In this document: one piece after another, positions 20,906-39,654 of the stretch
Numbering within the stretch: the stretch's first letter is position 1
Layout of the letters: each line of letters starts with the position of its first letter
Origin: Oscillospiraceae bacterium
GTDB lineage: Bacteria; Bacillota; Clostridia; Oscillospirales; Oscillospiraceae
Direction of reading: 5' to 3'
Length of the DNA stretch: 41,755 bases
Assembly (NCBI GenBank): GCA_009785345.1
Contig: WQWL01000017.1
Span: 1-41,755 of the forward strand
Made by a program: the position numbers and the translations under genes
Notes under the pieces: model-generated
The model's database searches: none
The model's input: only the letters and a program-made list of their open reading frames with translations
What the model was told of the DNA's origin: nothing

Positions 20906-21349
20906 TTATTCAACAGCTACGCTAAACGAAACCAAATCATCCATCTCTTTTGCATCCTCGAGTTGAGCTTCCTTTAGCCACACTTGATACTGCTCATCAC
21001 GAAGCTTCTCATAGGTTTTCAATTCCTTCACAGTAATCATAAGTTTCTCTTGACATTCAACAACAAACTCTTCCGCTTTGACTATTTTCTCACGAATCGC
21101 AACCAACTCATCACGCAAAAATCTAAAATAAGCATCATGCTCACTAAGAGCAGCACCAACACCATGACCACTCTTCAACGCTTTCTCCAACGATAATTCA
21201 TTATCATCCCAAGCCGTTAAAAGCCTAGTCTCTTCATCCTGAAAATCTTGCAAAACCTGCTGCGCCCTTTTGAGTTCAGCCATCTGCAATTTTTCAACAG
21301 TCAATTTGTAATTCTGCAACACCTGAAGCGAAAATTTAAATTTTTTCAT
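20906..21349 (-). CDS. fliJ: Flagellar export chaperone FliJ
   Basis: FliJ is a coiled-coil protein that sits in the FliI ATPase ring and moves export substrates to FlhA. The 147 residues equal the usual Firmicutes length. The sequence opens MKKFKFSLQVLQNYKLTVEK, typical of FliJ, and is charged and helical throughout. It follows fliI, as is normal, but is separated from it by a 216-bp spacer that holds a long foldback repeat. In most genomes these two genes nearly touch. It is the last flagellar gene of the block. Confidence 0.85.
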   Translation of the reverse strand: MKKFKFSLQVLQNYKLTVEKLQMAELKRAQQVLQDFQDEETRLLTAWDDNELSLEKALKSGHGVGAALSEHDAYFRFLRDELVAIREKIVKAEEFVVECQEKLMITVKELKTYEKLRDEQYQVWLKEAQLEDAKEMDDLVSFSVAVE

Positions 21350-21565: not shown

Positions 21566-22882
21566 CTAATCATCAACAATATCCTTCATCAGCTCCAACG
21601 TCTCTTCAAAAGTATAACTCTCCAGCATATCTTGCTTCAAAAAACTCTGAATCGGCGTATGCAACTTCACCGATCTATCAATCTCAGGATTTGCACCCTC
21701 GCGATAAGCACCAATATTTATCAAATCCTCAGCCTCACGATAAACCGCGATCATATTCTTTATCGTCCCAAAATCATCTAAATGCTCCTTGGTCACAATA
21801 TCCGGCATAACACGACTTACGCTACCGAGAACATCAATCGGCGGATAATGATCACTATTCGCAATAGCTCTCGACAGAACAATATGCCCATCTAAAATAC
21901 CACGAACAGTGTCAGAAATCGGCTCATTTATATCATCACCTTCCACAAGAACAGTATAAAGAGCCGTTATCGAACCCTTATCAGGCATTCCGGAACGCTC
22001 CAATAACTTAGGCAAAATCGAATACACTGACGGAGGAAAACCTCTCGAAACAGGCGGTTCGCCTGCAGCCATTCCTATTTCACGCTGTGCCATTGCAAAA
22101 CGTGTCAATGAATCCATCAAGAGCAAAACTTTTTTACCCTGATCTCTAAAATATTCAGCAATCGCAGTTCCCGTCATAGCACACTTCAAGCGCAAAAGCG
22201 CAGGCTGATCAGAAGTTGCTACTACTAAAACCGACTTGCGAAGCCCCTCTTCACCGAGATCTTTTTCGATAAAATCACGAACCTCGCGACCCCTCTCTCC
22301 GACGAGTACAATAACATTTACATCAGCAACAGCATATCGAGCCATCATACCAAGAAGTGTACTTTTCCCAACGCCCGACCCTGCGAAAATGCCCAACCTC
22401 TGACCACGTCCGACAGTTAACATACTGTCAATCGCCTTAATTCCAAGAGGAAGCACCTCATTTATACGCTCTCTGGTCAGGGGATTTGGCGGCACATTAT
22501 CGGCAGAATACCATGCATCAATTTTAGGTTCAGATAGTTCGTCAAATGGATTACCAAGAGCATCTAAAACCCTTCCTATAAGCTCATTTCCAACAGGAAT
22601 TTTGAGCGCCTTTCCTGTATAAGCAACATAACTTCCAAGCCCTATACCCTCAAGACTTCCAAATGGCATCAAGAGCATTCTGCCATCCTTGAAGCCGACA
22701 ACTTCGGCAAGCATGCTCCGCTGATTATCTAGCATATGTATATGGCAAATATCTCCGATTTTCGAAGCAGGTCCTGTCGCTTCAACAGTAAGCCCTACTA
22801 TTTTTGTAACCCGCCCTGCACGCTCGAGGGTGTCGGTTTTTGAAAGAGCCTTAGTATACTTTGTGAAATCAATCTGACTCAT
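21566..22882 (-). CDS. fliI: Flagellar export ATPase FliI
   Basis: FliI is the F1-beta-like ATPase of flagellar type III export. The 438 residues show the Walker A motif GSGVGKSTLLG, VLVGERGREVRDFIEKDLG and the Walker B strand VLLLMDSLTRFAMAQREI, followed by GEPPVSRGFPPSVYSILPKL. The start at 22882 (MSQIDFTKY) overlaps the fliH end by 14 bases. An upstream ATG at 22906 is possible but less like the family start. FliH, FliI and FliJ are encoded in normal order. Confidence 0.95.
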   Translation of the reverse strand: MSQIDFTKYTKALSKTDTLERAGRVTKIVGLTVEATGPASKIGDICHIHMLDNQRSMLAEVVGFKDGRMLLMPFGSLEGIGLGSYVAYTGKALKIPVGNELIGRVLDALGNPFDELSEPKIDAWYSADNVPPNPLTRERINEVLPLGIKAIDSMLTVGRGQRLGIFAGSGVGKSTLLGMMARYAVADVNVIVLVGERGREVRDFIEKDLGEEGLRKSVLVVATSDQPALLRLKCAMTGTAIAEYFRDQGKKVLLLMDSLTRFAMAQREIGMAAGEPPVSRGFPPSVYSILPKLLERSGMPDKGSITALYTVLVEGDDINEPISDTVRGILDGHIVLSRAIANSDHYPPIDVLGSVSRVMPDIVTKEHLDDFGTIKNMIAVYREAEDLINIGAYREGANPEIDRSVKLHTPIQSFLKQDMLESYTFEETLELMKDIVDD

Positions 22883-23651
22883 GTGTACCTGCTCTTTCAA
22901 ACGCAAGCCTTACTAACATAAGTTGTGAATCTACTCCTGCATTAATAGTAAAATCATCTGTGTCAATTATGCACTCACCATCTTCGAGAGACAAATCATT
23001 TATCACCGATGCCGTGACCTTCACACCACTATCAAGCTCAATAGTTGTCGCACCAGAAGCAAAAAATCTCTCATACTCCGTTGCACCAACACGTATTATA
23101 ATTTTGCTCTCAGCAGATATTTGCCTAAGAGCATTTTTTATTAGTGATGTGAACACAGTACCCAGCTCATCCTCTGCCGGATTAATAATCTTCCTTACTA
23201 TCTCCAAAGCGAGACTTACTACCTCATCCTCCATATCCAGCATAGCCCGCTCACGCTCACTATACAGCTCGTCAAGAATATTATTCAACGCTTCGTCATT
23301 TTCACTTATTTTTATTGCAAGCTCTTCGTCACATAAACGTTTACTTTCAGCTGAACCCTCTTCAAAACCTTGATTAAATCCACGTTTACGCTCTTCTTCA
23401 ATTTCTTCGTGGGCATCTGCAAGTATTCGCGCCGCTTCATCACGAGTTCTTGTAAGAATCTCTTCGGCTTTCTCGTTTATCTCAGCTTCGGCCGTGCTAA
23501 TGTATTCATTTACCATTGCTTCCGCAGAGGTCGCCGCATTCGGGAACATACCCTTTGCGCCGACCCCCCAATTTCCATCAGTACTCGACTGACTATTCTT
23601 TTCACTAACCAGCTTTACCAAACTTCTGTCAATCCTAAACAATAAAGTCAT
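22869..23651 (-). CDS. fliH: Flagellar assembly protein FliH
   Basis: FliH binds FliI and holds it at the export gate. The 260 residues start at MTLLFRIDRSLVK, with GGAGAAGGGG directly upstream. This gives a 17-base overlap with the fliFG gene. A long central coiled coil (about 60-130) contains EEIEEERKRGFNQGFEEG, the conserved Gly-rich turn of FliH. The C-terminal domain resembles the V-ATPase E subunit, with VVSLALEIVRKIINP and a final KVTASVINDLSLEDGE. The family is weakly conserved, so position in the operon adds to the assignment. Confidence 0.88.
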   Translation of the reverse strand: MTLLFRIDRSLVKLVSEKNSQSSTDGNWGVGAKGMFPNAATSAEAMVNEYISTAEAEINEKAEEILTRTRDEAARILADAHEEIEEERKRGFNQGFEEGSAESKRLCDEELAIKISENDEALNNILDELYSERERAMLDMEDEVVSLALEIVRKIINPAEDELGTVFTSLIKNALRQISAESKIIIRVGATEYERFFASGATTIELDSGVKVTASVINDLSLEDGECIIDTDDFTINAGVDSQLMLVRLAFERAGTHESD

Positions 23652-25920
23652 CCCCTTCTCCACGAGCAATAATAATCTTGCCCTCATCTTCAAGTTTGCG
23701 GATAGCATTGACAATTCTCTGCTGTGCTTCTTCAACATCGCGAACCCGGACAGGACCCATAGCTTCCATGTCGTCTTTTATCATATCTTCCAAACGTTTT
23801 GAAATGTTGTTAAAGATAGTCTTTGTAACATCTTCGCCTGCCATTTTGAGTGCAACAGCTAAATCTGCGTTATTAATTTCTCTCAAAACACGTTGTACAG
23901 TAGCATTGTTGAGTTTTGCGATATCTTCGAATATAAACAAGCGCTTTCTGATTTCATCGGCAAGCTCACCATCGCTAATATCAAGACTTTCAAGAATACT
24001 CTTCTCAGATGAGCTATCAAGAGCATTGATAATTCCGACAGCAGCATCAATACCGCCTACAACTATATTATCTGTAACACCCATAGATGTTATTTTGCGC
24101 TTGAGTATCCGTTCAGCTTCTTTTACGTACTCCGGTGATGTACTGCCCATGCTCGATATTCGACTGATTATTTCTGTTTGCTTTTCCGGTGGTAACGATG
24201 CGATAATTGATGCCGATTGCTTCGGCTCAATATATGATAGAATCAGTGCAATGATTTGCGGATGTTCATTGTGAATTACATTAAGAATTTGGTCTGAGTC
24301 AATTTTTCGTATGAAGTCAAATGGGCGAAGTTGTACTACTGAAGCAGAGTCCTTATCGATAAAACGCTCAATTTGTTCAAGTCCGGGAGTTTTTGTACTT
24401 AGATTTGCATCCTCATACTCAACTAATTGTGGCTCATCATCTCCTACAATAATATCAATACCTTCCGGCACTATTGTTCCGGTCGCTGTTGCTACTGCTA
24501 TTGCCGACTCCGAAACAACGGGTTTTTTCGCAGCTTTCACAATAGTTATAACGAGTATCATAGCCATAATGCCCAAAAGTACAATGGTTGCATACATAAT
24601 GATAGTTTCAAAATGCTCTCTGTCTGCTCTGGCCGTTTCCATTTCCGCCCATTGCTCATATAAGTCAGCAATAGTTGTGTCTTCATCGTATGCAAATGGC
24701 AATAACTGAACTGCAATGTTTACAGGGTCTACACCAATCGCCCTTGCCACCAAATCTGTCACTTCTTCAGAAAAATCTTGCCTTACTCCTTCAATCTCAC
24801 TATTTATCAATACCGCAATACTTAATTCTTGAATTGTACCTCGCTCATGCTCAATACGTTGTCTTGTTTCATTTATCTCGAAATTCCTGCTTATAACAGC
24901 ACGTCTGTACTCATCTGTATCTTCGAGTGTACCAAATGGATATTCCTCTGTACCCATGTAATTTGAATCTGTATCGGGCACTCCTTCGGCATCCATCAAT
25001 CTTCTTGAGTTTTCAAAAATTTCTTCCGAACTACGCACAATGCCGTCCATCTCACCGTATATAGGTGGCGTAAATTCGACACTTTCTGTCACAACTGCAT
25101 CAAAATTCAAACTTACATGTGGTTGAACTTGCAGGTTGCCTGCGCCAAATATAGGTGCGAGTAGTTGCATTACCTGACCTTGCATTTGCTCTGTCAGCCT
25201 ATTCTCAAGCGCAGAACGCTGACCTACAATCATATCAATATCTTGCGAAGCATCACCCACAGGATAGAAGTTAAGATCACTATCGGAAATACTTATGTTT
25301 TCATAAGATATACCCGGCACCGCATTTCTTATCAGCTCACCAATGGCTTGAACTTCCTGTTGAGTCAATCTTCCACCATCGGATAGGGTAAGCATGACTG
25401 TCGCAGTTGCTTGTCTTGCGTTTGTATGAATTCTAAACGGTGATGTTTCACCGGAGTTTACTATAATTAGCGCGTTTTGAATTCTTGGGACTTGCAATAA
25501 TTGTGTTCTAATATGCTCTGCTGTTTGTGCGTCATACAATTGCCTGGCATGAGCATCTGTAACACCAAATCCGGCGGCTCCTTCCATAATGTCAAACGTA
25601 AAATCTGTAGCGCCCAATATGCCTTGTTCTCGTAATCGCATCTGTGCTTCTCCGAGTCTCTCTTCCGGAACGAGTATGTTGCCGCTTTCAATTCTCGTCG
25701 GGAACCCCATATCTACAAGTGCAGAATATACATGAGGAGATGCTGCAGGATCAGCAACAGGCACACGCACCCAAGTTGTGCGTGTAATGAGACCCACAAC
25801 CACTACAGCAAGAACAATTACAAATATAGATAAAACTGCCAATTGGATTTTCTTTCCTCTTGGCATATTAGTAAACCATTCTCTCAATTGCACAAACATA
25901 TTGTTAGTAGTTTCTCGCAT
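23635..25920 (-). CDS. fliF-fliG: FliF-FliG natural fusion: MS-ring and switch protein
   Basis: One open frame of 761 residues. Residues 1-465 are FliF: a first membrane helix (27-46), the ring-building domains with DPAASPHVYSALVDMGFPT and ITLxDSDLN-type regions, and a second helix (439-463). Residues 531-761 are the FliG middle and C-terminal domains. They start LRPFDFIRK, with the EHPQ motif at 552-555, FIFEDIAKLNNATVQRVLRE near 662-681 and the terminal MGPVRVRDVEEAQQRIVNAI. The FliG N-terminal domain (about 110 residues), which normally binds the FliF tail, is absent. A short segment (about 466-530) bridges the two, and its end, GLEQIERFIDKDSASVVQ, resembles the FliF tail. AGGGGGG stands seven bases before the ATG. 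No separate fliG is present. Confidence 0.93.
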   Translation of the reverse strand: MRETTNNMFVQLREWFTNMPRGKKIQLAVLSIFVIVLAVVVVGLITRTTWVRVPVADPAASPHVYSALVDMGFPTRIESGNILVPEERLGEAQMRLREQGILGATDFTFDIMEGAAGFGVTDAHARQLYDAQTAEHIRTQLLQVPRIQNALIIVNSGETSPFRIHTNARQATATVMLTLSDGGRLTQQEVQAIGELIRNAVPGISYENISISDSDLNFYPVGDASQDIDMIVGQRSALENRLTEQMQGQVMQLLAPIFGAGNLQVQPHVSLNFDAVVTESVEFTPPIYGEMDGIVRSSEEIFENSRRLMDAEGVPDTDSNYMGTEEYPFGTLEDTDEYRRAVISRNFEINETRQRIEHERGTIQELSIAVLINSEIEGVRQDFSEEVTDLVARAIGVDPVNIAVQLLPFAYDEDTTIADLYEQWAEMETARADREHFETIIMYATIVLLGIMAMILVITIVKAAKKPVVSESAIAVATATGTIVPEGIDIIVGDDEPQLVEYEDANLSTKTPGLEQIERFIDKDSASVVQLRPFDFIRKIDSDQILNVIHNEHPQIIALILSYIEPKQSASIIASLPPEKQTEIISRISSMGSTSPEYVKEAERILKRKITSMGVTDNIVVGGIDAAVGIINALDSSSEKSILESLDISDGELADEIRKRLFIFEDIAKLNNATVQRVLREINNADLAVALKMAGEDVTKTIFNNISKRLEDMIKDDMEAMGPVRVRDVEEAQQRIVNAIRKLEDEGKIIIARGEGDDFIV

Positions 25921-26373: not shown

Positions 26374-26597
26374 GGGTTATCACTTGTTTTCGACAAATCA
26401 AATGACACTGTCGGTGCATTTAGTGCTTCCATATTCGTATCTCTTGTTGCCACAAGTAACTCTTTTTTGAAAACCTTGACATCACGCGGCGCATCGACAC
26501 CTAATTTGATTTTGTCACCATCAATCCCAAGAAGGGTCACACGGACATTCTCGCCGATAACTATCGTCTCATTCAGCTTCCTTGACAGAATCAACAT
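26370..26597 (-). CDS. csrA: Carbon storage regulator CsrA
   Basis: CsrA is an RNA-binding dimer that represses translation of flagellin and other mRNAs and is sequestered by FliW. The 75 residues start MLILSRKLNETIVIG, and VTLLGIDGDKIKLGVDAP follows, both hallmarks. The position of the important RNA-contact arginine (HRxEI in relatives) reads FKKEL here, a lysine. The start codon is one of three successive ATGs. The third, used here, gives the family N-terminus and suits the AGGGGGG site. The gene overlaps fliW by about 29 bases, so the two antagonists are co-translated. Confidence 0.93.
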   Translation of the reverse strand: MLILSRKLNETIVIGENVRVTLLGIDGDKIKLGVDAPRDVKVFKKELLVATRDTNMEALNAPTVSFDLSKTSDNP

Positions 26598-27057
26598 CAT
26601 CATCGCCCCCCTCTCTTGTAATTAACTTGCAAATTTGCTGAAAAACAGGGGCTCTGACATCATATTCATTATCATTGAGTACAACCTGTCTTCCTCGCCC
26701 CGTCAAAGTGTTAATAATAATCGGAGCGGCGAGATTTACAGTCATTCCATGAATATCTTCCGGAATAACCACTACACTAACAACGTGCAGTTCATCAGGG
26801 CTTTTCAATTCTAATGCGTTGACATCAATATCATCAATATCGAAAACATAATCCGGCAATACATTGAATGTGTCAAGTACCGGAAGACATACACCGGCAT
26901 CTTCAACCGATTGAAGCCAAACTATAGGATAACTCTCCTCAAATTGCAGCAATGCATACTTTTTGAATTGCCCAAGACCCGGAATGCCATCGGCAAAATT
27001 AATGACTTTTTCAGGGGCGACTGCAACCGTCCCAAACCGTAGCGTATCTACATGCAT
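26569..27057 (-). CDS. fliW: Flagellar assembly factor FliW
   Basis: FliW binds CsrA and flagellin and so links flagellin translation to secretion. The 162 residues show VINFADGIPGLGQFKKYALL, the conserved INFADGIPGL motif near residues 18-30, and VVVIPEDIHGMTVNLAAPI with APIIIN typical of the family. GGAGAGG stands close before the ATG. The fliW-csrA pair is normal in Firmicutes. Upstream of it, where flgK and flgL are expected, only an flgL fragment and a MITE remain. Confidence 0.93.
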   Translation of the reverse strand: MHVDTLRFGTVAVAPEKVINFADGIPGLGQFKKYALLQFEESYPIVWLQSVEDAGVCLPVLDTFNVLPDYVFDIDDIDVNALELKSPDELHVVSVVVIPEDIHGMTVNLAAPIIINTLTGRGRQVVLNDNEYDVRAPVFQQICKLITREGGDDDVDSVKEAE

Positions 27058-27147: not shown

Positions 27148-27213
27148 TTAGCGCAAAAAATCCATAAGCGACGGCTGAATCACATGAGCACCTGCAGAAA
27201 GTGCTGCCTCATA
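27148..27213 (-). pseudogene. flgL: C-terminal remnant of FlgL (hook-associated protein 3)
   Basis: The minus strand encodes 21 residues, ending AGAHVIQPSLMDFLR and a TAA stop. This is the characteristic C-terminus of Firmicutes FlgL (usually ...GARIIQPSLLDFLR). A TAG directly before the first residue closes the frame, and the MITE-like element begins six bases farther. The place, just upstream of fliW, is where flgL lies in the flgM-flgN-flgK-flgL-fliW order of Bacillus. The rest of flgL and all of flgK are missing here. Confidence 0.75.
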
Positions 27214-27219
27214 CTAATC

Positions 27220-27326
27220 ACTAATAAAAGAGTAGACATCTTTTCTGAATATTTTCCGTCTGGCATCGTTGTCCACCTCAACGGCCGAATAATATTCTCG
27301 AAAATCTTATCTACCATTTTATCAGT
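27220..27326. mobile_element. MITE-like element, copy 2 (107 bp)
   Basis: The termini are imperfect 19-bp inverted repeats, with four mismatches between ACTAATAAAAGAGTAGACA and ACTGATAAAATGGTAGATA. Its core is the inverted copy of the element at 25986-26117, without the extra hairpin. It touches the flgN stop codon on one side and lies six bases from the flgL remnant on the other. Confidence 0.8.
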
Positions 27327-27711
27327 GCTCAATATGAGCCTTTGTTAGTTCGCGATTTTCCATATTTACGGCGGCATGTTCTTCAATCAATGGCATAAGC
27401 TCCATTTGAAGCTTTCTAATTACATCGCGCTCATCAGGTTCGGCATTTTCTGCAATTATAGTCACTGTTATATCTTCATCAACTGGAATACGTAGCTCTC
27501 GCGCAATGACCTTGTGGAGTTCAAGCCTTTGATTCTCAATCACTCCAAGTCTATTAAGTTCCCAAAATTCGAGTCGAATAACTTCTTCAAGCTTTTCCGA
27601 CTCTCCGCTAATAATTATTTGCCGCTCCTCTTTCGCTAAAGCAAGCATTTTACTAAGAATCTCTTTTTGCTCCTGTAAAAGTGTGCATAAATCCGCAAGC
27701 GTTTGCCTCAT
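27322..27711 (-). CDS. flgN: Flagellar chaperone FlgN, probably C-terminally altered
   Basis: FlgN is the cytoplasmic chaperone for the hook-associated proteins FlgK and FlgL. The 129-residue helical protein begins LADLCTLLQEQKEILSKMLA and has the heptad pattern of the family, including ERQIIISGESEKLEEV. Relatives have about 150-160 residues. The stop codon TGA lies inside the terminal repeat of the MITE-like element, so the original C-terminus has probably been cut and replaced. Its client genes flgK and flgL are missing next door. The protein may have lost its purpose or serve copies encoded elsewhere. Confidence 0.75.
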   Translation of the reverse strand: MRQTLADLCTLLQEQKEILSKMLALAKEERQIIISGESEKLEEVIRLEFWELNRLGVIENQRLELHKVIARELRIPVDEDITVTIIAENAEPDERDVIRKLQMELMPLIEEHAAVNMENRELTKAHIEH

Positions 27712-27714
27712 CAG

Positions 27715-28002
27715 TCAAACACCGGAGGTTCTTGACAAAATGCTATCCACAATATCTTCGCTGTCAATTCTGTATTCACCATTTCTAACAGCTTCTTTGA
27801 TTTTTGCTATATGCGCTTTTTCTTCAGCAGTGCGGAACTCAAGTTGATTTTTGGCTTCCACTTTTGCCTTTGCAATACTAAGTGCTTCCGGCGATAAGGT
27901 CAGCTCGTCGCGATTGCTCACCACTGTGCTTTCCTCCTTTGTCACTTTCGTTGCTTGATAACTTCTTAAAATGTTTGGGTTTGTTATTGGGTTGATTTTC
28001 AT
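27715..28002 (-). CDS. flgM: Anti-sigma-28 factor FlgM
   Basis: FlgM binds sigma-28 and blocks late flagellar gene expression until it is exported. The 95 residues start MKINPITNPNILRSYQ, the standard Firmicutes opening, and contain RDELTLSPEALSIAKAK, then the sigma-binding helices ending VDSILSRTSG. AGGTGG stands before this ATG. The frame remains open upstream for another 51 residues to an ATG at 28155 that overlaps the preceding small frame. That extension does not resemble FlgM. The sigma-28 gene is about 1.5 kb upstream. Confidence 0.88.
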   Translation of the reverse strand: MKINPITNPNILRSYQATKVTKEESTVVSNRDELTLSPEALSIAKAKVEAKNQLEFRTAEEKAHIAKIKEAVRNGEYRIDSEDIVDSILSRTSGV

Positions 28003-28151
28003 ATATTCCACCTTTTCATTAGTTTGTTCTACATATACAGTATCGGTTAACAATGCGTTTAACGTTAGTAATATTTTCAAAATAATTTCATTTTTTATTC
28101 TTATAAAGCCTTTTAAATCACCTTTAATATCTCGATTCTCTGATTCTTTAC

Positions 28152-28259
28152 TCATTGCAATACTTTTTCAATCAAAGATGTAATCTCATCTTTGCAATTT
28201 CCGCACATTCTACCTGTATTAATCGGCTTTTTAGAAAATCTACATTGAATGATATCCAT
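28152..28259 (-). CDS. Possible 35-residue CxxC small protein upstream of flgM
   Basis: This open frame encodes 35 residues with one N-terminal cysteine (MDIIQC) and a MCGNCKDEITSLIEKVL block. GGAG stands five bases before the ATG. In Bacillus, the zinc-ribbon protein YvyF lies directly before flgM and has a similar C-x2-C...E...V pattern, so this may be a shortened relative. A TATAAT so close to the ATG would remove its ribosome site from the transcript, which argues against expression. The call is weak. Confidence 0.3.
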   Translation of the reverse strand: MDIIQCRFSKKPINTGRMCGNCKDEITSLIEKVLQ

Positions 28260-28272
28260 AAGTTCTCCAAAC

Positions 28273-28301
28273 ATTATATACGTATACATAAGTCAACGCA
28301 A
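28273..28301 (-). promoter_or_regulatory. Possible promoter of flgM-flgN-fliW-csrA
   Basis: The elements are -10 TATAAT, a 17-base spacer and a weak -35 TTGCGT, read on the minus strand. The palindrome ATACGTAT lies in the spacer. Confidence 0.4.
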
Positions 28302-29003: not shown

Positions 29004-29501
29004 CTACCCGCGCAAGCCAATCACAAGTAGGACCTCATTTCTGGTTATCCCCAGCTCTTGCGCAATCTCATTGTCAGACTTGCCCTCTTTTGCAAGTGAC
29101 AGTATTGCATCAGTTCTCATTTGTACGCTTGAATTCACTGCTATGTTCATTGCACTCTCAGCTACAGGCGAATTCACAACATCATCCAAGGCCTTTTTGA
29201 ATCCCGCTCCCTCTTGTTGTATCTGCACTTTCTGTTCCAGCTCCGGTGGTAGGTCAAACACTGACATGCCCGAAGTAAAGCGATACTCATGTTCCTTAAA
29301 CTCAGTTGTTGTCAACTTCACCTGTTCATTGAACTCTTCCATCAGCGTTTCAACTGATGTATATAGCTGCAATAATTTTGTCTCTTGTTCATCAAGCAAT
29401 TTTCTTTGTCTTTTTACATTGGCGAAAAGTAGCTTGCAAACAAATGCGATAACACAAATGAGTACCGCTACGAATAGTGCGAAAATATAATAACTTGCCA
29501 T
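29004..29501 (-). CDS. SwrB-like DUF6115 protein
   Basis: The 165-residue protein has one N-terminal membrane helix (about 5-27), a coiled-coil stretch (about 28-70) and a C-terminal helix-turn-helix, IAQELGITRNEVLLVI. The size, topology and place directly after sigma-28 match SwrB of Bacillus, which promotes assembly of the flagellar export apparatus. The sequence itself is poorly conserved among relatives, so this is mainly an assignment by context. The gap to the sigma gene is only eight bases. Confidence 0.7.
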   Translation of the reverse strand: MASYYIFALFVAVLICVIAFVCKLLFANVKRQRKLLDEQETKLLQLYTSVETLMEEFNEQVKLTTTEFKEHEYRFTSGMSVFDLPPELEQKVQIQQEGAGFKKALDDVVNSPVAESAMNIAVNSSVQMRTDAILSLAKEGKSDNEIAQELGITRNEVLLVIGLRG

Positions 29502-29509
29502 ACTTACTC

Positions 29510-30271
29510 CTAAACAACATGTGATAATTTAGCACGCATTTTTGCCAAAACCTTTGAATGAATCTGCGAAATACGAGACTCCGTAACACTTAGAATATCT
29601 GCAATTTCCTTAAGCAACAAACCTTCATAATAATACAATGTGATAACTGTCCGCTCCTTCTCAGGAAGCTCATCAATCACTTGTACCAGCACCGCTCTTT
29701 TTTCTTTTTCAAGCAGCTCATCCTCGGGAGACTTCTCATCTCTACTTTTAATCTCAGCCTCAGGATTTGCTGTACCCAATGCATCCTCAAAATTGATTAA
29801 GTTAAACATGTGGGTCTGGTTAAGCACCTTGTGAACATTTTCCACAGTCATACCCAACGAATCAGCAACTTGCTGGTCAACAGGACCATCGGGATTCTTG
29901 CTTTCATACACTTCATAGGCCGAATTAATCGCAGAAATTTTCTTGCGTAAACTTGGTGACGCCCAATCTTGTGCTCTCATATAGTCGAGAATTTCACCAC
30001 GAACACGTGTCACTGCATATGTCTCGAACTTAACCTCATGCTTAAGCTCAAATTTATTCACAGCATCAATAAGCCCAATCATTCCACTACTCACGAGATC
30101 ATCATACTCATTGTAGTTGTTATATTTGGGCATCATTCGCCGGACTATCCATCTTACCAAATAGCCATAATGAAGCAACAAATCATCTTTTGCGCCTTTA
30201 TCACCGGTTGACTTAAATTCAATCCAAAGCTCATCTAACTCCTCCGGACTCCGCTTATATGTAATATCCAT
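29510..30271 (-). CDS. sigD: RNA polymerase sigma-28 factor (SigD/FliA)
   Basis: This sigma factor directs late flagellar and chemotaxis genes. The 253 residues contain region 2, EYDDLVSSGMIGLIDAVNKFEL with FETYAVTRVRGEILDYMRAQDW, region 3, and region 4, ERTVITLYYYEGLLLKEIADIL with VTESRISQIHSK. Each quoted part is a fragment of a longer match. RGEILDYMR is typical for the FliA/WhiG group. The ATG at 30271 is used. An earlier ATG at 30283 directly touches the AAAGGA site and is unlikely. Its inhibitor FlgM is encoded downstream. Confidence 0.95.
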   Translation of the reverse strand: MDITYKRSPEELDELWIEFKSTGDKGAKDDLLLHYGYLVRWIVRRMMPKYNNYNEYDDLVSSGMIGLIDAVNKFELKHEVKFETYAVTRVRGEILDYMRAQDWASPSLRKKISAINSAYEVYESKNPDGPVDQQVADSLGMTVENVHKVLNQTHMFNLINFEDALGTANPEAEIKSRDEKSPEDELLEKEKRAVLVQVIDELPEKERTVITLYYYEGLLLKEIADILSVTESRISQIHSKVLAKMRAKLSHVV

Positions 30272-30421
30272 ATTTATGATCATTCCTTTCTGCGGGATTC
30301 AGTCACAATAACATTATCATATTTTACTTGCCAAAATCAACCTTCTTTTAACTTGTCGTTGTTATTTTCTTGGTGAAAAACGCGACAAATTTCTTTGTAC
30401 TCCCCAGATACACCAAAAACA

Positions 30422-31273
30422 TTATCCCTCATTTGTACTGAACATTCCCGAAAATACCCGCGAAAGCATGCTATGGGAAGCCTTCTCTTTAGGCATATTT
30501 AAAAGTTGCCTGGCAATCTCATCAATTTCATTTGCCGTTTCACCACTCGGCTCGCTAACAACAATCGGCACCTGATGCTTGATAGCCTTTGTAACATTGT
30601 GATTATATGAAATCAATCCCAGTAGATTAATATTTTTACCAAGATGCTTCCCACAAACAGCCGCCAGTCCCGTCTGCACATTTTGCGCATCTTTTTTGTT
30701 CTCACACTTATTTACCAGTAAATGTAAAGAATGTGATGCACCATGTTTAACAATCGTCTTTACTAATGCATACGCATCCAGAACCGAAGTTGGTTCAGAC
30801 GTAGTAACTACTATGGTTTCGGATGAAGCAAGCAGCATCTGCATTGTGATATTACCTACTCCTGCTCCCGCATCCATTATGATAACATCAATCGGCTCAT
30901 CGACATTAACGATTTTCGTCAAAAGCTCAGATAGCTGTGCTTCACTCATGTTAAGTAGTTCGCTAACACCCGAACCACCGGATATAAACCTAACACCCTC
31001 ATGACCAAATTGAATTATATCGTTGATTTTCCTCTCACCACGAAGAAAATGACTCAAATCATACCTCGTTGTTACACCAAGCATAGCATCGACATCGGCA
31101 AGTCCAAAATCAGCGTCCAGAACTAAAACACGAGCACCAAGCCGACTCATCGCAATAGCAAGATTCACAGAAATACTAGACTTACCAACACCCGTCTTGC
31201 CACTCGCAACAGAAATCACCCTTATCTCGTGACCTCTCCCCATCAACTCTCTCAAATTTTGAGCTTGATCCAT
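30422..31273 (-). CDS. flhG: Flagellar number regulator FlhG (MinD-like ATPase)
   Basis: FlhG is a ParA/MinD ATPase that regulates flagellar number and placement and stimulates FlhF. The 283 residues include the deviant Walker A motif SGKTGVGKSSISVNLA, LVLDADFGLADVDAMLG and IIMDAGAGVGNITMQML. The C-terminal part has LLVNKCENKKDAQNV and a short amphipathic end. The N-terminus AQNLREL is the FlhF-activating helix known in this family. The start at 31273 is preceded by GGAGTG at eight bases. The gene is in the standard flhF-flhG order, separated by a G-rich repeat. Confidence 0.92.
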   Translation of the reverse strand: MDQAQNLRELMGRGHEIRVISVASGKTGVGKSSISVNLAIAMSRLGARVLVLDADFGLADVDAMLGVTTRYDLSHFLRGERKINDIIQFGHEGVRFISGGSGVSELLNMSEAQLSELLTKIVNVDEPIDVIIMDAGAGVGNITMQMLLASSETIVVTTSEPTSVLDAYALVKTIVKHGASHSLHLLVNKCENKKDAQNVQTGLAAVCGKHLGKNINLLGLISYNHNVTKAIKHQVPIVVSEPSGETANEIDEIARQLLNMPKEKASHSMLSRVFSGMFSTNEG

Positions 31274-31300
31274 AGTGTACACTCCGAACTTCGTTCTTCG

Positions 31301-31383
31301 TTAGGGGTTAGGGGGGGTAGTTTACGTAGTAGTTGAGCCTCGCGGCTTTACTAACCCCTAAACCCTAGACCCTAACCCCTAAC
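31301..31383. repeat. TAGGG tracts forming an inverted repeat between flhF and flhG
   Basis: TTAGGGGTTAGGG at 31301 faces CCCTAACCCCTAA at 31370, a 13-bp inverted repeat. On the coding strand the part next to flhF carries four G-tracts in the pattern GGGG-N3-GGG-N4-GGG-N4-GGGG, a G-quadruplex pattern. The last codons and the stop of flhF come from the tract. Confidence 0.75.
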
Positions 31384-32556
31384 TATCGCTTTTACGATAG
31401 ATTCAACATCTGCTACTTCGATGTCATCCGGTACATCTTGCCCTGTTGTCACATATGCTAGTGGTTTTTGTGTGTACCAATTAATGTTGAAAATCGATCC
31501 TCGAAACTTTGTTTCATCAAGCTTGGTTATCATAACTTTATAATCATCAACAAACCCATAAGTATCCACCATTTCCTTGATAGATGAAAAGCTTGTTGTG
31601 GCGGCAAGGCAAAGCAGTATATCCTCAGGCTCCAAAATACGAACTATGTTAAGCAAGTCATCCTTGTGTTGCTCATCACCCGGACGCTTGCCGGCAGTAT
31701 CAACAAAAATTATATCTCTGTCTGACATCTGCTCCATTACATCTTCAAGCTCATCGGCTTGATAAACCACATGTATAGGAATGCCTAAAATATCTGCATA
31801 GGTTTGCAATTGCTCCTGTGCACCAATACGGTAAGTGTCGGTGTTGATTATTCCAACATTTTTCTTTTGTTTTACTGAAAATTCTGTAGCAAGTTTTACC
31901 ATTGACGTCGTTTTGCCTACACCTGTCGGACCTATCATTAGTACAACTTTCTGTGTGAATTTTTTGTGTAAAATTGGTTCTGGTCTACTGAACTCTTCAA
32001 GCATAAGGTGTTCAACAACTTCCAAAACATCTGCATCTGGCTGCTGCTTGAGTAATTGCTCCGCTTGTTTTGCAATGGAGTGAGCAAGTTCTTCACGCAC
32101 TTGTTCATCTATCAATTTTCCTAGTATTTTCAATACTTCTTTCGAATAATCATACGTTATATCACGTTTGACGTATGCAAACTTATCCAAGAAATCGGTC
32201 AACACTACTTCAAATGAGTTCATACGAGCATCAAATCGTTCAAGCTGCTCTGTACTCACATTTGAACGTTTGTCACTATCCCCACTACGTGCAAGCGCGT
32301 TAGCAGACGCACTCCTCGTATTTTGCATGCTATTTTCCCGCTCCGATGTATAAGACAAGTTTAGCTTTCTTGCCATGGGAGTGTTGGCAGGATCATATGC
32401 AAATTGAACTTCAAGAAGAGGCTTGCGAAACAAGTTTTTCAAACCCTTTCTCCGAACCTTGCTCTGAGCTATCATTACCGCATCCGAGCCAAGCTCACGG
32501 ATAGCAGTATCCATAGCCTGCTTCATATTTTCTGCATGATATCTTTTAACTTGCAT
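31372..32556 (-). CDS. flhF: Flagellar SRP-like GTPase FlhF
   Basis: FlhF is the third SRP-type GTPase and recruits early flagellar components to the assembly site. The 394 residues have a basic, variable N-terminal B domain (1-110), an N domain and a GTPase G domain with MIGPTGVGKTTSMVKLA, NTDTYRIGAQEQL, VDTAGKRPGD and TKLDETKFRG. It overlaps the flhA stop by TAATG. The natural end of the protein is modified: the last two residues and stop codon (RG and TAG) are read from a telomere-like repeat tract. Confidence 0.95.
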   Translation of the reverse strand: MQVKRYHAENMKQAMDTAIRELGSDAVMIAQSKVRRKGLKNLFRKPLLEVQFAYDPANTPMARKLNLSYTSERENSMQNTRSASANALARSGDSDKRSNVSTEQLERFDARMNSFEVVLTDFLDKFAYVKRDITYDYSKEVLKILGKLIDEQVREELAHSIAKQAEQLLKQQPDADVLEVVEHLMLEEFSRPEPILHKKFTQKVVLMIGPTGVGKTTSMVKLATEFSVKQKKNVGIINTDTYRIGAQEQLQTYADILGIPIHVVYQADELEDVMEQMSDRDIIFVDTAGKRPGDEQHKDDLLNIVRILEPEDILLCLAATTSFSSIKEMVDTYGFVDDYKVMITKLDETKFRGSIFNINWYTQKPLAYVTTGQDVPDDIEVADVESIVKAIVRG

Positions 32557-34604
32557 TATAACGTTATCACTCCTTCAGGCAGCACTTCGACCCCGCTATC
32601 TATCTCATTATACGATAAAACCGCAAGCTCCGGAGATATTTGTTCCGAAATCTTTCTAAACTGTCTTCTCACAAGTGGTGACGTAAGTATAATAGGTGTT
32701 TGACCTTTGTTTTTCATATTTTCGATGATTGTTTTAAGATTGTCATATATAGAATGAACTTGTATAGGTTCTATTGCGAGATACGAACCGTGCTCTGATT
32801 CTTTCGTACTATCAACAATCAGTTGCTCAAGTGATGGATCGAGCGTAATCGCATAAGCGATGTCATCCGGGATAAAACGCTTGGATATTGAGCGTTTGAG
32901 TGACTGTCTGGCATGTTCTGTCAACATATCGGTATCTCTTGTAATGTTACCATAGTCACCTAAAGTTTCAATGATTGACGCCATATCACGAATCGGAATA
33001 TTTTCTGAAAGCAAACTTGCGAGAACCTTCTGCACTTCGCCAAGTGAAAACAGCTTTGGAACAACTTCCTCTACAAGCGCGGGTTGTGATTTTTTTAAGT
33101 TGTCAATAAGCGTCTGCACTTGTTGTCGATTTAATAATTCATGACCATGTCGCTTTATTATTTCTGTCAAATGTGTTGCAATAACAGACGGTGGATCAAC
33201 AAGTGAGTACCCCAAAGTCTCTGCCTCTTCGCGGTCTGTATTAGAAATCCAAAGAGCAGATAGCCCAAAAGTAGGCTCTATCGTCGGAATACCATAAATT
33301 TCCTCTTCAAGGTTTCCAGGACTTAAAGCAAGTAAGTGATCTACCATCACTTCTCCATTTGCAACCTCGACTCCCTTAATTTTAATTGAGTACACATTTG
33401 TTCCAAGTTTAATATTATCTCGTATTCTAATTGCAGGAACAATGATGCCCATGTCAATTGCACATTGTCGCCTTATCATAACTATGCGGTCGAGCAAATC
33501 TCCACCCTGCGATGCATCAGCCATAGAAAGAATCCCGTAGCCAAACTCAAGTCCAATAGGATCAACTTGCAACAGTTCGGTTACACTCTCAGGCTTACGC
33601 TTTTCTTCCTCAACTGCATCTTCCTCTGCGTGTGCCTCTACATTAGCTTCTCCACGCATGCGGCTAGTCATAACATACCCGATAATCATTAACGTTGCTG
33701 CAACAAGCCACATCGGAATCGTTGGTAGACCAGGCATAAGGCTGATAATAATGAGTAACACACCACCCATGATTAATGCATTGGGTTGTTTGAGAATTTG
33801 CTTTGACATTTCTCCACCAAATGTTTCATCCCTGCCCGAACGTGTCACGATAATACCTGACGCTGTGGATATGAGGAGTGCCGGAATTTGTGTTATGAGA
33901 CCGTCTCCAATTGTTGCAAGTGTAAATATCTGCGCTACTTCACCGATAGAAGCATCCATAGTGAAAATCCCAATCAATATCCCGCCAATTATATTTATAA
34001 ATGTGACGAGGAGACCCGCAATTGCATCACCTTTAATAAACTTACTGGCACCATCCATCGCGCCATGAAAATCCGCTTCATGTTGTATCTTCTCACGTCT
34101 TTCGCGTGCAGTGTCTTCGTCTATAAATCCGCTGTTAAGGTCGGCATCAATCGCCATTTGCTTGCCCGGCATCGCATCGAGCGTAAAGCGCGCACTAACT
34201 TCTGAAACACGTTCGGCACCCTTGGTTATAACCATGAATTGTACAATCAATATTATTAAAAATATTATAACGCCAACCGCAAGATTGCCACCGACAACAA
34301 CCTCACCAAAAGCTCTGATTACTTCACCCGCATTTCCCGCATTTCCAAGAATAAGGCGTGTAGATGCAAGGTTCAACGCAAGACGAAAAACTGTAATGAA
34401 CAATAGTATTGTAGGAAACACAGAAAAATCAACAGGGTCCTTCACATAAAGTGAGAACAAAAGTATGATTATACAAACCGCCATATTAATTATGAGCAGA
34501 AAGTCCATTAGCGTAGTCGTCGGTGGGAATATCATAACAACGAGTATCGCAACAAGCAATATAGCTATAGAAATATCCGAAATTTTTATTCGATTCGTAT
34601 TCAT
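32556..34604 (-). CDS. flhA: Flagellar export gate protein FlhA
   Basis: FlhA forms the nonameric ring of the export gate and uses proton motive force. The 682 residues begin with eight membrane helices. The conserved cytoplasmic loop carries RFTLDAMPGKQMAIDADLNS, the FHIPEP family signature region. The C-terminal half is the chaperone-substrate docking domain, with RDMASIIETLGDYG. AGGTGAG stands eight bases before the ATG. The length is normal and there is no sign of decay. Confidence 0.97.
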   Translation of the reverse strand: MNTNRIKISDISIAILLVAILVVMIFPPTTTLMDFLLIINMAVCIIILLFSLYVKDPVDFSVFPTILLFITVFRLALNLASTRLILGNAGNAGEVIRAFGEVVVGGNLAVGVIIFLIILIVQFMVITKGAERVSEVSARFTLDAMPGKQMAIDADLNSGFIDEDTARERREKIQHEADFHGAMDGASKFIKGDAIAGLLVTFINIIGGILIGIFTMDASIGEVAQIFTLATIGDGLITQIPALLISTASGIIVTRSGRDETFGGEMSKQILKQPNALIMGGVLLIIISLMPGLPTIPMWLVAATLMIIGYVMTSRMRGEANVEAHAEEDAVEEEKRKPESVTELLQVDPIGLEFGYGILSMADASQGGDLLDRIVMIRRQCAIDMGIIVPAIRIRDNIKLGTNVYSIKIKGVEVANGEVMVDHLLALSPGNLEEEIYGIPTIEPTFGLSALWISNTDREEAETLGYSLVDPPSVIATHLTEIIKRHGHELLNRQQVQTLIDNLKKSQPALVEEVVPKLFSLGEVQKVLASLLSENIPIRDMASIIETLGDYGNITRDTDMLTEHARQSLKRSISKRFIPDDIAYAITLDPSLEQLIVDSTKESEHGSYLAIEPIQVHSIYDNLKTIIENMKNKGQTPIILTSPLVRRQFRKISEQISPELAVLSYNEIDSGVEVLPEGVITL

Positions 34605-34655: not shown

Positions 34656-34687
34656 CTAACCCCTACCCCCTAAACCCTATCCCCTAG
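34656..34687 (-). repeat. Telomere-like TAGGG tract after flhB stop
   Basis: On the coding strand four G-tracts (GGGG, GGG, GGGGG, GGGG) are spaced by two to four bases. The flhB stop TAG is the first unit of the tract. It can form a G-quadruplex in the flhB-flhA mRNA. Confidence 0.7.
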
Positions 34688-35760
34688 CGCGGCAGCTTGC
34701 CGCTCTGTCTGTAGACAGAAACCAAAATATCCGCTACTTCTTGATATAAATCTTCCGGAATCTCGTCATTTATCTCACATGTTGCAAACAAAGACTGCGC
34801 CAATACGGGATTTTCTACTATTTGAATACCATGCTCAATTGCAACTTCTCTTATTTTATGTGCAACATAGTCTTGACCTTTTGCAAGCACAGATGGAGCT
34901 TTCTGTTCATCCGCCTTATAAGCAAGAGCAACTGCAAAATGTGTCGGATTCGTAATAACAACATCAGCTTCCGGCACCCGACTCATCATGCGCATTGCGC
35001 TCATTTGCATTTGTCTCTGACGAATCTTACTTTTGATTTGGGGATCACCCTCCATCATCTTAAACTCATCTTTTACTTCCTGCTTTGTCATTCTTAAATC
35101 TTTTTCATATTTCCACCATTGATACAAGAAGTCGGCTATTGCAATGAAAACCATAACCAAGCACATGCGCAAAGCTACCATAAAGGCCGTTCTCATCATC
35201 TCAATAAACGAAATATAAACATTTTGTCCAACATAGCTGCCGAATTGATCCAGCAATGCCATATACTCAACATACGCAACAAACCCAATTAGAGCGACTT
35301 TGAGCAAGTTTTTTATTAAGTCAACGAACCTTTGCGCGGAAAACATTTGCTTGAATCCATTAACCGGATTTATCTTATTAAGCCTTACCTTTAACGTATC
35401 GGTAGTAAACATAAATCCAATTTGTAATACGTTTGCAGCAATCCCTGCCACTATGGCTGCACCGAATATCGGAAGCAAAATAACAAAAAATCCGATAAGC
35501 ACACGAGCGAGCAAACTCATTATCTCATCATGATTCATCCCTCTGCTTGCCATCATGATCGACGCCGGACTCAAGTACTCGGAAAACAACGCAGTCATTT
35601 GGCCTGTGAGCCAAGGCCACAGCGCAAAAAGCAGACCAAACATAACGATGGAACAAAAAGCAATATTTACTTCATTACTGCGACGAACCTGACCCCTTTT
35701 TCTAGCATCACGTCGCTTCTTCGCCGTTGCCTTTTCAGTTCTCTCTCCACCTTGCCCCAT
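34684..35760 (-). CDS. flhB: Flagellar export switch protein FlhB
   Basis: FlhB controls the change from rod/hook to filament substrates. The 358 residues start with the conserved GERTEKATAKKRRDARKRGQ. Four membrane helices follow, and the cytoplasmic domain contains the self-cleavage site NPTH at 271-274 in ITNPTHFAVALAY. The C-terminus is of normal length. AGGTGAG, made from the fliR stop region, stands before the ATG. FlhB normally works with the hook-length ruler FliK, which is not in the window. Confidence 0.96.
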   Translation of the reverse strand: MGQGGERTEKATAKKRRDARKRGQVRRSNEVNIAFCSIVMFGLLFALWPWLTGQMTALFSEYLSPASIMMASRGMNHDEIMSLLARVLIGFFVILLPIFGAAIVAGIAANVLQIGFMFTTDTLKVRLNKINPVNGFKQMFSAQRFVDLIKNLLKVALIGFVAYVEYMALLDQFGSYVGQNVYISFIEMMRTAFMVALRMCLVMVFIAIADFLYQWWKYEKDLRMTKQEVKDEFKMMEGDPQIKSKIRQRQMQMSAMRMMSRVPEADVVITNPTHFAVALAYKADEQKAPSVLAKGQDYVAHKIREVAIEHGIQIVENPVLAQSLFATCEINDEIPEDLYQEVADILVSVYRQSGKLPR

Positions 35761-35763
35761 AAC

Positions 35764-36552
35764 TCACCTAACAAAATTAGCAAACATGTTCCCTATTCCA
35801 AGAAATAATTCATCAAAAATCCTTGCACTAAAAACACCATAAACAGGTAATGTAATAATAAAAAGGATGATGCCCACGAACATTTTCAACGGAATGCCAA
35901 CGACAAACATATGAATCTGCGGAACAGCACGCATCATCATTCCAAAAGCAATCTCAATTGTTAGCCCCGATGCAACAATAGGAAGCGCCATCATAGCACC
36001 TAACATAAATGCCCGCACAAAAATTTCGAGAGCCGTAATCCCAATTAAGGGTGAAATAACCAAGCTGCCTATCGGCATGCGCTCAATGGTCAAATACAAT
36101 ATCTCAATAAGCCTTAAATGCCCATTTACGACAAAAAACAATAATATGAACATGACATTCAGGACATTACCCATCATAGGCACTTGAGCATTATTTTGAG
36201 TATCGAAAACATTAACAATACCAAAACCAATTTGCATATCAATGAGCTGTCCCGCCGTGAATGCTGTAACAGAAAAGAATACATTTACCACATACGCCAG
36301 CGCCATACCCAAAAGCAACTCCCCTGTAGCCAGCAATGTAAACCCAAGCAAAGTCGTGTATTGGATTGTAATAGTTTGCGGAAAAATGGTGAACATCAAA
36401 AAGCTTAATGATGTAACAAGTCCAATTTTTGCGATTATAGGAACATTTATCCTACCGAAAATAGGTGATGCAAGAACAAGTCCACCCATTCTAAAAACAA
36501 GCAGAATAAAATAATCCGCACTCATTAAAATTGAAACTGCTGTCGCTGCCAT
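35764..36552 (-). CDS. fliR: Flagellar export protein FliR
   Basis: FliR is one of the core export-gate membrane proteins, together with FliP and FliQ. The 262 residues have about six membrane helices. The conserved sequence GELLLGMALAYVVNVFF, FTAGQLIDMQIGFGIVNVFD (two separate pieces of the same region) and ALPIVASGLTIEIAFGMM identify it. It abuts fliQ (one-base overlap) and is followed after three bases by flhB, the usual tightly packed order. Confidence 0.95.
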   Translation of the reverse strand: MAATAVSILMSADYFILLVFRMGGLVLASPIFGRINVPIIAKIGLVTSLSFLMFTIFPQTITIQYTTLLGFTLLATGELLLGMALAYVVNVFFSVTAFTAGQLIDMQIGFGIVNVFDTQNNAQVPMMGNVLNVMFILLFFVVNGHLRLIEILYLTIERMPIGSLVISPLIGITALEIFVRAFMLGAMMALPIVASGLTIEIAFGMMMRAVPQIHMFVVGIPLKMFVGIILFIITLPVYGVFSARIFDELFLGIGNMFANFVR

Positions 36553-36827
36553 TATGATACTACCAATGTATTTATTTGCTCGAATAAATTAGTAACAAAA
36601 CCACCTACTGTAGCAAAAATGAACCCTCCAAAAACTAACAAGGTCAATAAAACTGCTACAATTTTAGGAACAAATGCAAGTGTCTGCTCATTTATCTGAG
36701 TAGTTGCCTGAAAAATCGACACAAGTAATCCAACAACCATTGCAACAATCAACATAGGTGCTGCACTAAGAATTACAGTTGTAATCGCTTGGGTTAGTAT
36801 ATTAATTATTACACCTTCTGAAATCAT
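36552..36827 (-). CDS. fliQ: Flagellar export protein FliQ
   Basis: This is a 91-residue protein with two membrane helices and the conserved segment GLLVSIFQATTQINEQTLAF. FliQ forms a ring of subunits around the FliP-FliR pore. The length is that of the family (about 89). The gene overlaps fliR but is set 142 bases from fliP, where a palindromic repeat lies. fliP and fliQ are usually within a few bases of each other. Confidence 0.95.
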   Translation of the reverse strand: MISEGVIINILTQAITTVILSAAPMLIVAMVVGLLVSIFQATTQINEQTLAFVPKIVAVLLTLLVFGGFIFATVGGFVTNLFEQINTLVVS

Positions 36828-36969: not shown

Positions 36970-37662
36970 CTACATGAAAGTCTGCACTAACGAACCAATG
37001 ATGAGCTGCCAACCATCTACCATTACAAATAACAGCACCTTAAATGGAAGTGAAATCATTGCAGGGGGTAGCATCATCATACCCATTGACATTAAAACAC
37101 TTGCCACAATCATATCAATAACAACAAACGGAATATAAATTAAAAAGCCTATAAACATAGCATGCTTGATCTCACTCGTTATAAACGCCGGAATCAGTAC
37201 CGAGTTTGGAACCTCATCTATGTCTGCAAACTCCTCGCCTGAAAGTGCAATGAAAAAATTCAGGTCACTTTCAAAAACCTGATTGAGCATAAACTCCCGT
37301 GTTGGGTTCATTGCCTCCTCGATAAACTCCTCTTGTGTCAACTCTCCTGCAACAAAAGGCACATAGGCTTCCTCATAAACCTGTGTAAACACAGGTTGCA
37401 TAACAAAAAAGGTTAAGAATAATGCCAGACCAATTAATATTTGATTTGGCGGAGTCTGCTGCATACCTAATGCTTGACGAACAAAAGAAAGCACAATAAT
37501 AATCCGAGTGAAACCAGTCAGCATTATCAAAATCGATGGCAACAGTGTGAGTATTGTTAATAAAATCACAATATCCACAGTTTGTGCACCCTCGCCAAAT
37601 AGAGTTCTGACTATTTCATTAATCGTACCAATATCTCCGCCGGTATCTATATCTATCGGCAT
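36970..37662 (-). CDS. fliP: Flagellar export protein FliP
   Basis: FliP subunits form the pore of the export gate with FliQ and FliR. The 230 residues contain GFTRIIIVLSFVRQALG, the signature QTPPNQILIGLALFLTFFVM and, at the C-terminus, VASVLMSMGMMMLPPAMISL. There is no long cleaved signal peptide, which is usual for many Firmicutes FliP. The ATG at 37662 has GGAGG seven bases upstream. An in-frame TTG just before it is ignored. Confidence 0.96.
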   Translation of the reverse strand: MPIDIDTGGDIGTINEIVRTLFGEGAQTVDIVILLTILTLLPSILIMLTGFTRIIIVLSFVRQALGMQQTPPNQILIGLALFLTFFVMQPVFTQVYEEAYVPFVAGELTQEEFIEEAMNPTREFMLNQVFESDLNFFIALSGEEFADIDEVPNSVLIPAFITSEIKHAMFIGFLIYIPFVVIDMIVASVLMSMGMMMLPPAMISLPFKVLLFVMVDGWQLIIGSLVQTFM

Positions 37663-37706
37663 CAATCTTCCTCCGGATTCCGGGTTGTATTTTTCCTACT
37701 ATCGCC

Positions 37707-38339: not shown

Positions 38340-38358
38340 AACAGGTCCCTCCAATCTT

Positions 38359-39202: not shown

Positions 39203-39336
39203 CATCTCTCGCCTTCTCCTCAAATCATCATTCAAAACAACAAGGCAATATAAATTCATATTCAAAAATTATATCATGACAGCATTGTAATGTCTATATT
39301 TATTACAAGTTATCGCAATATATAATGTAGAAATAC

Positions 39337-39597: not shown

Positions 39598-39654
39598 ATT
39601 AATAACCTTGCCTTTCGTCAATCTTTTGGCACAAATGCTTATATATTTATCTTC

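Follow-up and report, generated by a model that had tools for sequence, protein, structure and literature searches.

Fused fliF::fliG Gene and Its Domains

The window studied here is the whole contig WQWL01000017.1 (C17, 41,755 nucleotides) of the Oscillospiraceae bacterium assembly GCA_009785345.1, a single metagenome-assembled genome (MAG) of 3.5 Mb in 237 contigs, 85.86% complete and 2.2% contaminated. It carries a flagellar locus in which fliF, the gene for the MS-ring protein, runs in frame into fliG, and the N-terminal domain of FliG is missing. The locus raises the question of what such a protein does in the cell. Our preferred answer, with a probability of about 0.5, is that the fused FliF–FliG is part of a non-motile flagellar export or basal-body stub that is probably still functional.

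23635..25920, minus strand: fliF::fliG fused gene, FliF at residues 1–531 and FliG_M+C at 532–761; single open frame with Pfam domains, the only place of FliF and FliG_C in the genome
about 24325..24335, minus strand: fusion junction, residues 530–532 (QL/RP), placed by comparison with the FliF tails and FliG linkers of 13 relatives

Open reading frame analysis gave an uninterrupted frame of 761 residues plus stop. Pfam models place YscJ_FliF at residues 60–217 (96 bits, cut-off 24.4), YscJ_FliF_C at 254–399 (84.2 bits, cut-off 23.8), FliG_M at 543–614 (94.3 bits, cut-off 25) and FliG_C at 644–751 (147.2 bits, cut-off 23.3). The FliG_N model also scores above its cut-off (33.5 vs. 25 bits), but on residues 554–647, i.e., on the M domain and the start of the C domain. 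This match was rejected as a true FliG_N and read as the known likeness among helical repeats, because the relatives' true FliG_N sequence was found neither in the window nor in the genome. An earlier note, made from the sequence alone, had claimed one uninterrupted FliF–FliG frame without the FliG N domain; the open frame, the Pfam domains and the comparison with relatives bear this out, and a natural in-frame fusion without FliG_N is confirmed. The membrane helices that it placed at residues 27–46 and 439–463 agree with helices predicted at 21–45 and 417–464. There is no in-frame ATG, GTG or TTG between residues 484 and 591, so the FliG_MC part has no obvious start of its own. The structure prediction proposed earlier for the junction region yielded an AlphaFold2 model of the fused protein with a mean predicted local distance difference test (pLDDT) score of 61.5, but residues 465–533, between the second membrane helix and FliG_M, scored below 50. 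In this weak model, these residues perhaps form a loose tether.

Junction and Copy Number

In the 13 same-genus relatives, FliF ends with QLLRNWLSDE or a similar sequence and a stop; a spacer and about 105 FliG residues follow before the motif RPFDFIR. Here, the FliF tail before the junction reads ...ERFIDKDSASVVQL, with RPFDFIR directly after it, and the junction sequence as a whole is ...GLEQIERFIDKDSASVVQL of FliF followed by RPFDFIRKID of FliG. Compared with the relatives, roughly 350–465 bp are lost: the end of fliF (the last 8–9 residues and the stop), the spacer and the start of fliG, coding for ~105 residues. A first alignment (A1) was set aside, since its FliG_N rows seemed to be placed on the FliF tail. 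The earlier claim that the FliG N domain and part of the FliF tail are both gone stands for the N domain; the FliG-binding tail of FliF is mostly kept (GLEQIERFIDKDSASV is present), and its loss does not extend beyond the last 8–9 residues. With no more than a few bases in common at the join, a deletion by ordinary short homology would suffice. Such a deletion, probably at these few shared bases, would have joined the fliF tail in frame to fliG and in the same event removed the N domain, the normal dock of FliG on FliF.

The genome has one YscJ_FliF place, and FliG_C occurs only at the window locus (two hits in the same frame). FliG_N was not found in the genome with a relative's own sequence, and the family search hit only the M domain; a local tblastn search of the window plus 14 kb of contig C19 gave nothing better than E 0.87. 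Nor does the assembled genome hold a second fliF/fliG pair, which the earlier note had named as a possible sign of redundancy. That the join is an assembly artefact or comes from a mixture of strains might be suspected in a single, fragmented MAG with some contamination. However, the two sides of the join have few bases in common and meet in frame, no FliG_N turned up anywhere else in the genome, and several further deletions in the same flagellar system point the same way. An artefact is thus unlikely.

Distribution of the Fusion

FliF/FliG matches were found in 14 of the 19 genus genomes, this one included, and the other 13 all have two separate genes; the search of related genomes for a fusion and a separate fliG, as suggested earlier, is answered in this way for the genus. 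We take the isolate codes of the same-genus relatives to denote termite gut samples. No match was found in G004, G011, G012, G015 and G017, five of the 18 other members; two of these assemblies reach just 64% and 69% completeness. Perhaps the five have lost their flagella as well, and flagellar loss therefore seems recurrent in the genus.

No other single match spanning residues 1–761 was present among the matches listed for 119 relative genomes (40 with a match, own included) or for 400 family genomes (90 with a match at 1e-20). Open frames of ~860–930 residues in relatives were considered as full-length natural fusions and rejected, as the frame length had run through a stop. Separate fliF and fliG frames are present in G005, G013, G071, G097, G098, G325, G419, G320, G266, G228 and G021; in G224, only a separate fliG of 339 residues was seen. 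A scan of 84,980 species with one degenerate pattern of the junction returned 0 matches, a pattern blind to other junctions in a collection from which own or very near records were possibly excluded. In a protein scan (39 loci), the matches spanning FliF and FliG are long enough to hold the FliG_N stretch, and FliG-only loci are uninformative. The survey thus consisted of the genus, the family, the pattern scan and the protein scan, and was not phylum-wide.

Missing Motor, Hook, Filament and Chemotaxis Genes

The genomes were searched with 16 pieces taken from 15 flagellar and chemotaxis proteins. This genome matched one of them (FlgB), whereas the relatives G002, G003, G006 and G009 each matched all 16. 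The pieces were taken partly from these four relatives, so that their own hits are trivial, yet each relative was also matched by the others' pieces. MotA, MotB, FlgD, FlgE, FlgG, FlgK, FlgL, FliD, FliK, FliS, CheW, CheR and the CheC part of FliY, all present in the four relatives, were not found in this 86%-complete assembly. FlgC and a second FlgG-type protein, which G002, G006, G009 and G013 have, are missing here; in the same query, four of four non-flagellar control genes (presumably Asd, DapA, DapB and QueA) were present here and in all four relatives. The MotA_ExbB (PF01618) and Flagellin_N models gave no match in the genome, while among 14 control genomes at least four match. The flagellin family counts as absent here by Flagellin_N, a model to which FlgL of a relative responds too; the relatives were not covered by the flagellin search.

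In G009 and G006, the genes run in the order: sigma factor, a 614-residue gene, DUF6115, two FlgG-type genes, a small gene, flgM, flgN, flgK, flgL, a gene of ~200 residues, fliW, fliF, fliG, fliH, fliI and fliJ, some of these names being our assumption. The 614-residue gene, the FlgG-type genes, the small gene, flgK, flgL and the 200-residue gene are gone from the window. Further up, G006 has DUF327, cheW, cheR, flgB and flgC, where the window has only a short DUF327 gene, flgB and fliE. Incomplete assembly explains the losses poorly, since within the window itself the positions of flgC, flgK, flgL and the FlgG-type genes no longer hold these genes.

These results bear on the possibility of a working motor with a covalent FliF–FliG rotor, the missing genes lying on unassembled contigs. 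In its favour, the charged residues of the FliG torque helix, which serve in torque generation, are unchanged in the fused protein. A deletion fusion in Salmonella is motile (PMC6445934). On the other side, 15 of the 16 searched pieces are absent, as are MotA_ExbB and Flagellin_N, and flgK, flgL, flgC and the FlgG-type genes are missing from the relatives' places in the window while four of four non-flagellar genes are present. With no stator found, the unchanged charges have nothing to act on. A working motor is the least probable of the explanations considered here, and the fused protein probably belongs to a membrane export machine instead. The effect on rotor bias expected in the earlier note finds no footing in the gene content: with these pieces, FlgC, the FlgG-type genes, MotA_ExbB and Flagellin_N absent, there is no sign of a torque or bias to set.

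Retained Flagellar Genes in the Window

The retained set comprises the MS ring, the export gate, the ATPase complex, FliE, FlgB and a trimmed C ring. The frames of FlhA, FlhB, FliP, FliQ, FliR, FliH and FliI are open, while filament and stator genes were not found; the motifs of FliI, FlhF and FlhB are intact. The features other than the fused gene are as follows:

20906..21349, minus strand: fliJ (Pfam)
21566..22906, minus strand: fliI, export ATPase, Walker A intact (Pfam, motif check)
22869..23642, minus strand: fliH (Pfam FliH); the listed start at 23738 is probably too early
26569..27057, minus strand: fliW (Pfam)
27151..27213, minus strand: 3'-end remnant of flgL, the remainder of flgK–flgL being gone (tblastn with G009 FlgL, 18/21 residues)
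27322..27711, minus strand: flgN, shortened (129 residues vs. 168–188 in relatives)
27715..28155, minus strand: flgM, anti-sigma factor
28164..28274, minus strand: possible remnant of the small gene preceding flgM in a relative (weak tblastn, E 1e-4 and 0.002)
28458–28898, plus strand: GNAT acetyltransferase gene, on the opposite strand at the position of the relatives' rod genes
29004..29501, minus strand: DUF6115 gene, shortened (165 vs. 203–209 residues)
29510..30283, minus strand: sigma-70 type factor
30422..31282, minus strand: flhG-like ParA/MinD-type ATPase
31372..32556, minus strand: flhF-like signal recognition particle GTPase
32556..34604, minus strand: flhA, cytoplasmic part accelerated, membrane part not
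34684..35760, minus strand: flhB, NPTH motif intact
35764..36552, minus strand: fliR
36552..36827, minus strand: fliQ
36970..37665, minus strand: fliP
37707..38354, minus strand: fliO
38478..38783, minus strand: fliE
38780..39265, minus strand: flgB; flgC, next in relatives, is missing
39337..39621, minus strand: DUF327 gene, shortened (94 vs. 152 residues); cheW and cheR, next in G006, are missing here

For fliH, a TTG at 23642 is the suggested start, which gives an overlap of 8 bases with the end of the fused gene; the relatives' next frame begins LFRIDR. The sigma-70 type factor is presumably fliA, by position, and the small gene preceding flgM in a relative presumably YvyF.

FliM and FliN

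The C-ring proteins FliM and FliN are present on another contig of this genome (C19), and both are trimmed. FliM (L052:12607-13596) lacks ~18 residues between the middle and C domains as well as the C-terminal tail; as the protein ends early, one late stop may account for the latter. FliY, which in relatives has 538–565 residues, is reduced to a FliN of 114 residues (L052:13589-13933), and the CheC-like part and proline-rich linker of the relatives' FliY are gone. Upstream of fliM, this contig carries large RHS-repeat proteins (L052:508-6222 and L126:8-4900) and many small genes. The region occupies the place of flgD and flgE in G009 and G006.

Evolutionary Rates of the Retained Proteins

For each retained protein, the number of residues changed in this genome alone was compared with the number changed in a sister alone (G002 or G009), using up to five outgroups. 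The counts draw on nine of the 13 relatives, for some genes on fewer, and the non-flagellar genes had one outgroup; DUF327, for which G002 and G009 contribute no row, does not enter the counts, and its distances are raised. In the core, the mean counts (here/sister) were 8.0/13.5 for FliP, 5.5/6.6 for FliQ, 15.2/16.5 for FliR, 33.1/27.8 for FlhB, 11.9/10.6 for FlhA residues 1–330, 9.9/14.1 for FliE, 10.4/11.5 for FlgB and 52.0/60.4 for FliF. The pooled 146/161 indicates no acceleration in the gate, MS ring, FliE and FlgB. The four non-flagellar genes gave 94/82 with G002 and 96/85 with G009.

Accelerated are FliN (25.8/3.7), FliG_MC (25.5/5.6), FliM (35.7/13.7), the cytoplasmic residues 331–682 of FlhA (33.8/9.0), FliA (19.2/8.4), FlgM (11.7/4.2), FliJ (20.6/7.7) and FliW (17.0/8.1). 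Intermediate values were obtained for FliI (26.1/18.8), FliH (28.2/19.7), FlhF (36.1/24.5), FlhG (27.7/16.5), FlgN (12.8/8.9), DUF6115 (20.2/11.3) and FliO (15.8/8.4). With outgroup G003, the pooled C ring (80/29) differs from the core pool (120/141) at p 1.3e-6 and from the four non-flagellar genes at p 8e-4. The eight accelerated stretches hold 129 excess changes with all frames still open, whereas neutrality predicts ~6.9 stops (P about 0.001). Given the lack of acceleration in the gate and MS ring and the open accelerated frames, the membrane part may be kept by selection; judged from these counts, relaxation or re-shaping, rather than death, seems to have befallen the cytoplasmic ring and the docking parts.

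Functional Stub or Ongoing Decay

The same genes can be read as a recent, ongoing decay, in which motility was lost stepwise, the open frames are remnants that have not yet acquired stops and the fusion is a functionless chance in-frame deletion. The order would perhaps be chemotaxis and filament first and flgK–flgL lately. Several observations speak for this and weigh against a functional stub. Between flgN and fliW, the final 21 codons of flgL can still be read; 18 of 21 residues are as in G009, the one relative compared, although only 67% of the last 57 bases agree, which indicates that flgL worked until recently. This remnant, and possibly that of the small gene, is little decayed. The orphaned FliF tail is unchanged against the nearest relative, which fits recency, and so is the N-terminal stretch of FliM, LSEILSQSEIDELLSALMTG (LSQSEIDELL). 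FlgN, DUF327 and DUF6115 are shortened, and the missing end of FliM might be explained by a late stop. The five genus members without a FliF match point in the same direction, within the limits of their completeness.

The counts themselves call for caution. FliG_MC alone is significant with outgroup G018 (29/6) and not with G003 (21/12; p 0.07 vs. the core, 0.34 vs. the non-flagellar genes), the rate groups were formed after the numbers were seen, with no correction for multiple tests, and the losses are those of one MAG, 86% complete. The gate shows no acceleration, but the loss of motility is possibly recent. Against decay stand the ~20 retained genes with open frames, the absence of acceleration in the gate and MS ring although the C ring and the FlhA tail are accelerated, and the finding of 0 stops in the accelerated stretches. 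Stepwise, partly recent loss fits nearly everything too; we give it somewhat lower odds than the functional stub.

The functional stub can be pictured as follows. The fused gene belongs to a flagellar system from which the stator, the hook and filament, most of the rod, and CheW/CheR have been lost. Its product would still build an MS ring through its intact FliF part, which is plausible because both FliF domains are present, around the FliPQR–FlhAB gate with a FliE–FlgB stub. Because FliG_M binds FliM (PMC6445934), the tethered FliG M and C domains may still hold a trimmed FliM–FliN ring under the MS ring as a dock for FliH–FliI–FliJ, with no role in torque. We infer that ring and gate still assemble and export something. 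More tentatively, at somewhat below even odds, in-frame pruning has turned the flagellum of this gut bacterium into a non-rotating export machine in which selection still acts on the MS ring and the gate.

Comparison with Known Systems

The Salmonella fusion FliFG d-f lacks 56 FliF and 94 FliG residues and is motile with a clockwise bias (PMC6445934). As here, it is one polypeptide from which the FliG N domain is removed and in which M and C are kept. It is a laboratory strain with a full motor, whereas here 8–9 FliF and ~105 FliG residues are lost and most motor genes are missing; it swims, whereas the genes for stator, hook and filament were not found here; and the FliG-binding tail of FliF, removed in the Salmonella-type fusion, is mostly kept here. 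Suppressor positions in Salmonella include FliG D124, several in FliM and one in FliN (PMC6445934). FliG, FliM and FliN are accelerated here; compensation of that kind is not claimed.

The earlier note knew of no natural fusion without the N domain. One exists in Chlamydiaceae, where the cytosolic part resembles the M region of FliG only (PMC4768692). It is like the present one in being natural and in having no FliG N domain described, and Chlamydiaceae are not thought to be flagellated; it is unlike it in its length of ~330 residues, its shortened periplasmic part and its single FliG domain. The present protein has both FliF domains and FliG M and C, and is accompanied by FliM, FliN, FliH, FliI and FliJ. 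The claim of novelty stands in narrower form: no report of a natural fusion of complete FliF with FliG M and C was found in the open-access literature, where Chlamydiaceae are the only natural case found.

As here, Buchnera has lost flagellin, motA and motB and keeps the MS ring and export gate in its basal bodies, which are thought to be repurposed (PMC8109811). It differs in having rod and partial hook genes and separate FliF and FliG, and in being an obligate symbiont with a 600 kb genome. Non-flagellated Lysobacter enzymogenes OH11 likewise keeps flagellar export genes and exports a foreign flagellin; it is an unrelated bacterium, and its abstract reports no FliF–FliG fusion (PMC7277350). 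PMC7355467, PMC9380563 and PMC10579323 have no direct bearing on a FliF–FliG fusion.

Biological Significance

The fusion is a natural counterpart of a well studied Salmonella mutant, and suggests that natural systems can do without the contact between the FliF tail and FliG_N where no torque is required. Even a system in plain decay would document cleanly in what order flagellar parts are lost. With the full flagellar set in relatives and pruned, fused and kept parts here, the locus offers a datable intermediate after the end of motility and bears on the old question of the interconversion of flagella and injectisomes. If a non-rotating export machine is indeed maintained, it would consist of an MS ring covalent with FliG and a C ring cut to the core domains of FliM and FliN, with most of the rod, the hook, filament, stator and switch control discarded. 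In that event, the Chlamydiaceae would offer a parallel: there, too, a fusion would have taken over from the FliF–FliG_N contact once rotation was abandoned.

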